A stretch of DNA of 47,149 nt from Promethearchaeota archaeon (GTDB lineage Archaea > Asgardarchaeota > Lokiarchaeia > Sigyniarchaeales > SOKP01). Made by a program: the position numbers and the translations under genes. The notes beneath the pieces are model-generated. The model worked only from the letters and a program-made list of their open reading frames with translations, was not told the origin of the DNA and did not search any database. The stretch covers positions 1 through 47,149 of the forward strand of contig WJIS01000109.1 of the NCBI GenBank assembly GCA_014730165.1. Reading direction: 5' to 3'. Within the stretch, counting starts at the first letter, position 1, and every line of letters starts with the position of its first letter. Shown here piece by piece: positions 23,467 through 26,548 of this stretch.

Positions 23467-24957
23467 ATGAAATCTAATACAATTGGAAAAATTACTATTT
23501 TGGCTTTAATTTTTCTCTTAAGCATTAATTTTTTAACTTATAGTGTAAGAGCCCAAAACCAAGGATCTCCTACCCCTTTAGAAGCTTTTGGACATACATT
23601 TGATGAAAATTATTGGGATACTAACATCTTCAATAATTCGCGTTGGGACCATCCTGATGTAAATCCTGAAGTAAGTTGGTTAAATAATACTTGGAATATG
23701 AAATGGATAAAAGAAGGCAACTTCGAGATGGGTATGTTGAGTTTCTTGAATAAAACCGCTTGGGAGAGTGGAAAAGAAGTAGTTTATACTACACCAGCAG
23801 AAATGTGGTGGCAACACGCATATTTAAATGGCTCGGAAATTTTTATTGCTTCATTACATTGTGCTTGGTTTGGATTTAGTGATACAAATCAGAATCGTTA
23901 TTATGATGAGGGAGAGAATATTAATCCTTTCTTTTATATGGGAGCAACAACACCTCAGATGGTCAATGATGTCGGAATTAAGTCAAATCCAACTGTAGAA
24001 AAAATTCCTTTACAAAGATCCGTTTCTGGAGACATAGTGACTTACGAATGGGGCTACAATTATACGGATATAATTTTTTATGTACCTAAAATTGATCATT
24101 TAAATCAAAATTTTTCAGCTGGTTTTAATTATTCTGATCCAGGAACCTACTTAGGTGGTTCAGAAGTAATCGGAAATCAGACATATATCTCATATAATTA
24201 TAAACTTGAGATTAATACAGGTCTAGGTGTATCTAATTTATATCAAGATTATGAGTCTGGGAAATTTGGTGTATTAAAGCATTATAATGAAAGCTCGGGT
24301 AACTGGGAACTGGTTTCTCCCGGAGAACAAGGATATATGCCGGAAGACTGGGCTATGTGTTTGGGAACGTGGAGTTTTATTATGGCTGATCAAGATTATG
24401 CTTTAAGTGATCTACAAGAGGGAGAAATTAATGCAACTGCACATAAAACTGGTTTAACAGAAGTGAAGACAACTTTAGGAGGAAACCATGCATTTGATTT
24501 TAAGTTTAATCAAAAACCAACTTATGACTTGGATTACATCAATGGAACTACTATGGGAACTTTTAATACGGTATATGAATGTTTAGACGTTAATAATGAT
24601 CAAGGATTCATAGATTTCGCCTCTGGAATGATACATTTAATAGGAGATTTTGCTAAACTAATTTTAAGCTATGCTGTAAACCAAACTAATAGATTTACGA
24701 ATGGTATTCCTTTTGATGTGGCATATGAAGCTTTTCATCCAAATGAAACTGCGGCATTCTTTATTACTTGTTATCCAGAATACGGTGAGAGTGGTGGTGG
24801 CAGATTAGTACATGATCCTTCCTTTACTGCATATTTTTCCGTTCAGAGTGCCAGTGGAGGTATACCAGGATTTTCAGTAGGTATATTATTACTTACTCTG
24901 ATGGTGGGTGTTTCAGTAATTATTTTAAAGACTCCAAAAATCCGCAAAAAGCTTTAA
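23467..24957 (+). CDS. Secreted, surface-anchored protein with CTERM-like tail
   Basis: A 496-residue exported protein. The N-terminus is a signal peptide (ITILALIFLLSINFLTYSVRA, residues 9-29). The mature part has many Asn-X-Ser/Thr sites and is rich in Trp and Tyr. At the C-terminus GGIPGFSVGILLLTLMVGVS is followed by a basic tail KTPKIRKKL: a short PGF-type motif, one hydrophobic helix and positive residues, as in archaeosortase-processed CTERM proteins of archaea. No archaeosortase gene is in the window. The ectodomain family is unknown to me. A TATA-like TTTAAATATA lies about 80 nt upstream. Confidence 0.8.
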   Translation: MKSNTIGKITILALIFLLSINFLTYSVRAQNQGSPTPLEAFGHTFDENYWDTNIFNNSRWDHPDVNPEVSWLNNTWNMKWIKEGNFEMGMLSFLNKTAWESGKEVVYTTPAEMWWQHAYLNGSEIFIASLHCAWFGFSDTNQNRYYDEGENINPFFYMGATTPQMVNDVGIKSNPTVEKIPLQRSVSGDIVTYEWGYNYTDIIFYVPKIDHLNQNFSAGFNYSDPGTYLGGSEVIGNQTYISYNYKLEINTGLGVSNLYQDYESGKFGVLKHYNESSGNWELVSPGEQGYMPEDWAMCLGTWSFIMADQDYALSDLQEGEINATAHKTGLTEVKTTLGGNHAFDFKFNQKPTYDLDYINGTTMGTFNTVYECLDVNNDQGFIDFASGMIHLIGDFAKLILSYAVNQTNRFTNGIPFDVAYEAFHPNETAAFFITCYPEYGESGGGRLVHDPSFTAYFSVQSASGGIPGFSVGILLLTLMVGVSVIILKTPKIRKKL

Positions 24958-25245: not shown

Positions 25246-25254
25246 CTATATAAG
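25246..25254 (+). promoter_or_regulatory. TATA box of dnaG
   Basis: CTATATAAG lies about 30 nt before ATG 25280, the distance expected for an archaeal TATA box of a leaderless or nearly leaderless mRNA. It supports 25280 as the true start of dnaG, upstream of the in-frame TAA. Confidence 0.55.
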
Positions 25255-25279: not shown

Positions 25280-26548
25280 ATGGAAGTGATCAAGATTAAT
25301 AAAACTAATCAAAGTACTGATTTTACAACGAAATATATTATTGAAATCGCATTTAAAATAAAAGGGGTTGTCGAAAAGAGCGATATCGTGGGCGCTGTCT
25401 TTGGACAGAGATAAAAAGAGCTCCTTTTTAACGTCTTAACCGAGGGCTTATTACTTGACCTAGATTTGAGGGATCTTCAGAAATCAGGGAGAATAGGTAG
25501 AATAGAAGTTGGTAATGAATCTACGGAAGGAATTTCCGAAGGATATATTAAAATCCCTAGTAGCCTAACTCGGAAAGAGACAGCGCTTTTAGCAGCGACA
25601 GTAGAAACCGTGACTCGTGTTGGACCATGCGAAGCAGATATGAAACTTCTCGAAATTAGAGATGTCAGAGAACGTAAAAGGAAAAAAATCATAGAAAGAG
25701 CAGCAGAACTACTTAAACAATGGGATCAAAAATCTCTTGATGCTAGTGAAATTGAAGAGCAAATCGATACTGATATAAAATTAGCTGAAATTATCTCATG
25801 GGGTCGAGAAAATTTACCCGCAGGACCAGATGTGGAAAAGGATGACGAATTAATAATCGTTGAAGGCAGAGCTGATGTGTTGAATTTATTACGTATTGGT
25901 ATAAAAAATACGGTTGCTGTACAAGGGACGAGCATTCCAAAATCAGTTATTGAGCTTATAGAGAAGAAACAGACAGTCACAGCCTTTTTGGATGGTGATA
26001 GAGGGGGAACTCTCATATTGAAAGAATTGATGCAAATGGCAGATATTGATTTTTTAATGAGAGCTCCAGAGGGTTTTGAAGTCGAAGAATTAACCAGAAA
26101 ACAGATGATAAAAGCGCTTCAAGGAAAAAAACCAGCAAATGCAGAGGATATCCCCGAAAAGATAATCGAAATCGAAGAAGAAAAGGAACCAATCGAAGAA
26201 GAGAAAGAAAATGAAGAAGTTTATCATGGGAAAGAAAAAGTTCTTGTGAGATTCTTAAAGAAACTTGAAGTAAAGGATAAGAATGTGATAATAGACGCAA
26301 TTAGAAAAATAGATACAGGAAAATCTATTGGATTCAATAAAGACGAAGAAGAATTATTTGATCTACCTGTAAGTGAATTATTTGAAAAGATTAAAGAGTA
26401 TGAGAAGATACCATTTCTTATCATTGACGGAATTCTCACAAATCGACTTCTATCAGCACTTCTGAATATGGATATCAAATTTATTGCGTGTAAAAACAAG
26501 GAAGAAGAGCTTAATACACCAAATAATTTAGCTGTATATTATTTTTAA
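25280..26548 (+). CDS. dnaG: Archaeal DnaG primase (TOPRIM), reading frame interrupted by a probable 30-nt BHB intron
   Basis: From ATG 25280 the first exon encodes YIIEIAFKIKGVVEKSDIVG then AVFGQ, the conserved DnaG N-terminus. An in-frame TAA follows at 25412-25414. The same frame resumes as TEGLLLDLDLRDLQKSGRIG and continues to the end. Archaeal DnaG normally reads GQTEGLL without a gap, so 25409-25438 is an exact insert. Removing it gives about 412 residues. The TOPRIM centre is intact: LIIVEGRADVLNLL and TAFLDGDRGG. Archaeal DnaG associates with the exosome and may prime RNA. The acidic linker and C-terminal DUF-like region are normal. Alternatives are a pseudogene or bypassing. Confidence 0.85.
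25409..25438 (+). other. Probable BHB-type intron inside dnaG mRNA
   Basis: The element has a central 4-bp helix pairing 25403-25406 (GGAC) with 25433-25436 (GTCT). It has 3-nt bulges at 25407-25409 and 25437-25439, and an intron stem of G25410-C25432, one A.A mismatch, then 25412-25418 with 25424-25430 (TAAAAAG/CTTTTTA, loop AGCTC). Cutting after the second base of each bulge, as archaeal splicing endonuclease does, removes exactly 30 nt and restores CAG-ACC-GAG-GGC. No outer exon helix is evident, so it is the relaxed HBh' form. Confidence 0.68.

Follow-up and report, generated by a model that had tools for sequence, protein, structure and literature searches.

A predicted bulge-helix-bulge intron in the dnaG mRNA of an Asgard archaeon, with counterparts in related genomes

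The window analysed here, a stretch of 47,149 nucleotides (contig WJIS01000109.1 of assembly GCA_014730165.1) from a Promethearchaeota archaeon of the Lokiarchaeia, contains a dnaG gene whose neighbours include genes for eIF-6, prefoldin and a GTPase of the SRP54/FtsY type. An open reading frame of 496 codons directly upstream of dnaG (23467-24957) has no match in Pfam. As described in the initial annotation of this DNA, translation confirms that the dnaG frame (25280-26548, forward strand) is continuous except for a single internal stop, TAA at 25412-25414, and that the conserved GQTEGLL is split between Gln and Thr by exactly 30 nt (25409-25438), an insert of phase 0 located precisely at the Gln43/Thr44 boundary. 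When the insert is left out, this motif is made whole (VFGQ|TEGLL) and the protein reads AVFGQ|TEGLLLDLDLRDLQ; the translation obtained after removal of 25409-25438 is identified as DNA primase DnaG by NCBIfam NF003108 with an E-value of 9.6e-126 and a score of 420 bits. The TATA box annotated at 25246 is present as a TATA-like sequence, located one base from that position. The window derives from a draft assembly of 392 contigs (G000, 97.8% complete), which was searched for a second, intact dnaG, as raised in the initial annotation, and no further copy was found.

Table 1. Features of dnaG and of the predicted intron, in window coordinates.
Feature	Position	Strand	Basis
TATA-like box	25247..25253	+	27-33 nt upstream of ATG; read in sequence
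dnaG exon 1, codons 1-43 (ATG to CAG, Gln43)	25280..25408	+	homology to intronless relatives
possible outer exon helix, 5' strand, pairing 25442-25445	25399..25402	+	paired in 90.9% of cells among 22 relatives; all changes one-sided
central BHB helix, exon strand GGAC	25403..25406	+	covariation with 25433-25436
5' bulge AGA, predicted cut after 25408	25407..25409	+	BHB geometry
predicted intron, 30 nt, phase 0	25409..25438	+	removal restores GQTEGLL; same-place inserts in 26 further genomes
intron stem, 5' strand, one A.A mismatch 25411/25431	25410..25418	+	BHB geometry, covariation
in-frame TAA within intron	25412..25414	+	in-frame stop in first three codons of 15/17 representative introns
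intron stem, 3' strand	25424..25432	+	BHB geometry, covariation
central BHB helix, intron strand GTCT	25433..25436	+	covariation
3' bulge TAA, predicted cut after 25438	25437..25439	+	BHB geometry
dnaG exon 2, Thr44 to stop at 26546-26548	25439..26548	+	strong purifying selection; NCBIfam match of joined protein

The insert and its borders can be folded as a bulge-helix-bulge (BHB) motif, and the pairing coordinates proposed initially for the helix, the 3-nt bulges and the stem with one mismatch were all correct on re-checking (Table 1). The central helix includes one G.U pair, and an additional outer helix between the two exons can form, with the result that the 3' bulge comprises up to 5 nt. 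A cut after the second base of each bulge, which had been predicted to excise just these 30 nt, restores the conserved protein. Equally good BHB geometry occurs in two of the 94,138 30-nt intervals of the window (both strands), and shuffling of the intron letters reached the same geometry score in 1 of 200,000 trials. The lowest-energy fold of the window RNA alone is other than the BHB (-11.4 versus -5.1 kcal/mol on 49 nt; -15.1 for the best fold versus -11.5 for the BHB on 60 nt). The structural argument has its main weakness here and therefore rests on covariation in relatives. RNAalifold recovers the central helix only, and the minimum-energy fold of the introns of one related family (f10) is the BHB with the outer helix.

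The comparison of dnaG among related Asgard genomes that had been suggested in the initial annotation drew on a set of 228 genomes, probably all metagenome assemblies, 210 of which yielded a DnaG match; genomes with one uninterrupted match were counted as intronless without each being read individually. Inserts of 29-43 nt at the Gln43/Thr44 junction (hereafter position A) are present in at least 26 further genomes from four families, and the insert in the window is consequently no private mutation or error. Within the window's own family (f1), 23 genomes including that of the window carry an insert exactly at this point and many others lack one; in the latter, GQTEGLL is intact, with no codon gained or lost. 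Position A is also occupied in family f3 (G038, 29 nt), in family f10 (G057, 34 nt, and G132, 31 nt) and in family f29 (G227, 32 nt). In all eight genomes of family f21 (L068, L070, L074, L075, L077, L082, L083 and L084), an insert of 28-31 nt lies 13 nt downstream of the window site, and the standard BHB cut there would give GLLGED, as in intronless relatives. With few exceptions a BHB with 3-nt bulges forms, and the conserved protein is recovered when each bulge is cut behind its second base; the exceptions are the two f10 genomes, with one helix mismatch each, and G004, which has a weak inner stem. In a single f1 species (G150; L097, contig C54, about 388-417), 30 nt are inserted between the Ile and Val codons of SDIVGA; the stem and a 4-bp helix pair there, yet cutting in the standard BHB manner would join the exons in different frames. 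Genome G164 holds two dnaG genes (L062 and L099), one intronless and the other intron-bearing and close to that of G156; the intron-bearing copy may represent contamination.

Among 17 representative inserts at position A, 16 have a length that is not a multiple of three, and 15 of the 17 introns contain an in-frame stop within their first three codons. Comparison of exon 2 of the window gene with nine relatives that have the intron gives a dN of 0.14-0.33 at near-saturation of third positions, values that indicate strong purifying selection on this exon. Taken together with the frame-breaking inserts, this implies that full-length DnaG is kept despite a broken frame in the DNA. Covariation was assessed in 22 distinct position-A sequences over four central and three inner pairs. 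These pairs form in 95.5% of cells, with both partners altered in 16 cells; the observed covariation was matched by no shuffle out of 500, and slid registers were only 14-51% paired. The wobble base of the exon Gly codon changes together with its intron partner (C-G in 11 sequences, A-U in 5, U-G in 3, G-C in 2 and G-U in 1). The pairing predicted between exon and intron at position A is thereby backed by covariation. The outer exon-exon helix is paired in 90.9% of cells across the 22 relatives with changes on one side only, and its pairing may be explained by codon constraints. Agreement with the BHB reaches 97.2% of cells for the f21 introns, which contain too little variation for a covariation test.

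Two homologs of the tRNA-splicing endonuclease EndA are encoded in the window genome. The alpha homolog (contig C45) retains the catalytic Tyr, His and Lys, possesses the residues that correspond to Lys44 and Arg46 of A. pernix in the loop specific to Crenarchaea, and aligns best to PDB 3p1z (7.8e-36), which we take to be EndA of Aeropyrum pernix. The second homolog (beta, contig C347) lacks the catalytic His, an arrangement that by homology is of the (alpha-beta)2 type. According to published work, the broad substrate range of the endonuclease requires the loop Lys (PMC6379350; PMC12397907). Two RtcB ligase genes are also present (L116 and L117), and the genome is thus predicted to encode an endonuclease type able to cleave a relaxed BHB, together with a ligase. 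Most relatives have two EndA matches whether or not their dnaG contains an intron, which suggests that EndA permits such introns rather than tracking them.

We consider it highly probable that 25409-25438 is a BHB-class intron of the archaeal dnaG mRNA, cut by EndA and joined by RtcB. The dnaG transcript would fold so that GGAC of the exon pairs with GUCU of the intron, the (alpha-beta)2 tRNA-splicing endonuclease would cut after 25408 and again after 25438, and RtcB would join the exon ends so that DnaG, in archaea a primase-like protein and a subunit of the exosome, is made in one piece; the unspliced mRNA would yield a peptide of 44 residues. We infer from sequence that cleavage, ligation and a need for splicing in vivo very probably apply to dnaG, almost certainly through the tRNA-splicing enzymes. 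The proposal of a protein-coding BHB intron made in the initial annotation emerges as the best explanation by far, given inserts at the same boundary that mostly break the frame, compensating changes between exon and intron, and endonuclease and ligase genes of the expected types in the genome.

A very improbable alternative is translational recoding, whereby no RNA would be removed and the ribosome would instead pass the insert by read-through of the TAA or by hopping. In the window itself, where the insert is 30 nt, frame alone allows read-through with the addition of ten residues, but the insert breaks the frame in 16 of the 17 representative relatives, and the covariation follows BHB geometry, with exon paired to intron. 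Known ribosome hops require a landing triplet that matches the take-off codon, whereas here the last triplet of the intron (TAA or TTA) differs from the take-off codon CAR. The draft state of the assembly, with its many contigs, might favour a pseudogene or an error of sequencing or assembly; we regard this as hardly credible, since inserts at the same site recur in many independent assemblies, third codon positions are saturated while dN remains low, and the genome contains no other dnaG copy. Ribozyme introns need far more than 28-43 nt, and a remnant of a self-splicing group I or II intron that is not an EndA substrate has a next to negligible probability, because these inserts are far too short for a ribozyme and their conserved structure is that of a BHB, even though group I and II introns do occur in archaea (PMC6125680).

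A further possibility accepts the intron as real and makes it a regulatory switch, in which a retained intron would mean an immediate stop and splicing capacity would set the level of DnaG. The early in-frame stop in most representative introns is in keeping with this, and a negative regulatory role has been proposed for the cbf5 intron (PMC2738675). However, many close relatives are intronless, from which it follows that any control exerted through the dnaG intron is dispensable; moreover, the introns share a common descent, and conservation of the GAU...AUC pairing in part accounts for the stop. We consider a regulatory switch unlikely. The initial annotation had proposed that the need for splicing could link the supply of primase/exosome protein to tRNA splicing.

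The predicted BHB intron of dnaG has companions, likewise predicted, in a second gene. A scan for BHB junctions that join coding frames was run on a congener (G004), covering 1.6 Mb and later about 2.4 Mb, most of the genome; it was not exhaustive, as it missed the weak-stem dnaG intron of G004 itself in the right register. One match was outstanding, a 31-nt insert with a perfect 9-bp hairpin in a porB-like gene (L207, contig C6, 79408-79438), where a Glu codon is interrupted (MNTGIQ^ESGG). In three other genomes (G001, G003 and G006; L199, L200 and L225) the porB-like gene carries an insert of 30-31 nt four bases upstream, within the Ile codon, and its removal restores MNTGIQESG; the central helix is complete in G006 and, as read by eye, has one mismatch in G001 and G003. 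The gene is uninterrupted in about 25 relatives. A Pfam search of the 239-residue porB-like piece gave no match, and the name rests on continuity with these intronless relatives and on the motif NYDNEAFMNTGIQ, which we presume to be that of beta subunits of 2-oxoacid:ferredoxin oxidoreductases. None of the other candidates in the roughly 2.4 Mb of G004 exceeded a mirror-geometry control, and one of them (C5:404140) was discarded, since the sequence of its presumed intron looks like coding sequence. On these sequence features, BHB introns appear to be present in at least two genes of the lineage, and in each of them more than one nearby position is used.

In a DnaG tree computed after exclusion of the insert columns, the four insert states (none, A, C and D) need at least 14 changes, a count that does not distinguish gain from loss and comes from a tree in which many inner branches are weak; position C corresponds to one clade (99*). 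Precise loss via cDNA has been proposed for cbf5 introns (PMC2738675), and the dnaG pattern possibly reflects repeated precise loss, perhaps by the same route, repeated gain, or both. We regard as evenly balanced a broader proposal, that mRNA splicing by EndA and RtcB is a recurrent feature of several Asgard genes, with the N-terminal region of dnaG and MNTGIQESG of the porB-like gene as hot spots of independent gains and many precise losses; BHB introns would be gained and lost recurrently at these sites since half of the BHB is already provided by the exon sequence.

If second and third host genes are confirmed, mRNA splicing by protein enzymes would prove more widespread in archaea, and the many species available for comparison would allow a study, away from the spliceosome, of how mRNA introns are gained, lost and shifted in position. 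The Asgard archaea are the archaeal group thought to be closest to eukaryotes. Whether a relaxed (alpha-beta)2 endonuclease lets mRNA introns arise becomes a testable question. There is also a warning for annotation, as gene callers truncate or split such intron-bearing genes.

The BHB intron of cbf5 pre-mRNA was reportedly described by Watanabe in 2002. In the Desulfurococcales and Sulfolobales it measures 16-44 nt (Yokobori 2009, PMC2738675). The open-access papers examined support the view, expressed in the initial annotation, that cbf5 of Crenarchaeota is the only well-known case: they offer no other BHB intron inside an archaeal coding sequence (PMC2738675), with one addition in a 5' UTR (PMC7714728). 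We found no Asgard mRNA intron among these open-access papers, and an earlier report elsewhere is possible. On the same open-access basis, cbf5 has for over twenty years been the sole reported host of a BHB intron in coding sequence, and the candidates described here would add a second and a third gene, in the Asgard archaea. The dnaG intron lies outside the cbf5 family, its host gene being dnaG; the only TruB/Cbf5 match of the window genome is free of internal stops. It resembles the cbf5 intron in being a short BHB intron in coding sequence (28-43 nt here) with a relaxed motif, a patchy presence with loss and a hetero-tetrameric endonuclease in the genome, and in having some lengths in frame and most not. 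It differs in its host, dnaG (also the porB-like gene), in its phylum and in the several insertion positions per gene; in addition, cbf5 splicing was demonstrated by cDNA, whereas that of dnaG is predicted from sequence. The BHB intron in the 5' UTR of HVO_1309 of Haloferax volcanii, for which cleavage was shown experimentally (PMC7714728), likewise has mRNA as substrate of the splicing endonuclease, as predicted for dnaG, but lies in a UTR rather than in coding sequence and involves a euryarchaeal enzyme. BHB introns of tRNA are abundant in the Asgard Atabeyarchaeia and Freyarchaeia (PMC11291895); these share the motif, presumably the enzymes, and small introns at non-canonical places, in contrast to the location of the dnaG intron within a protein-coding transcript. 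The insert in dnaG is thus, by its predicted structure and recurrence, a conserved mRNA BHB intron of the kind known from crenarchaeal cbf5, now in a new gene and a new phylum.
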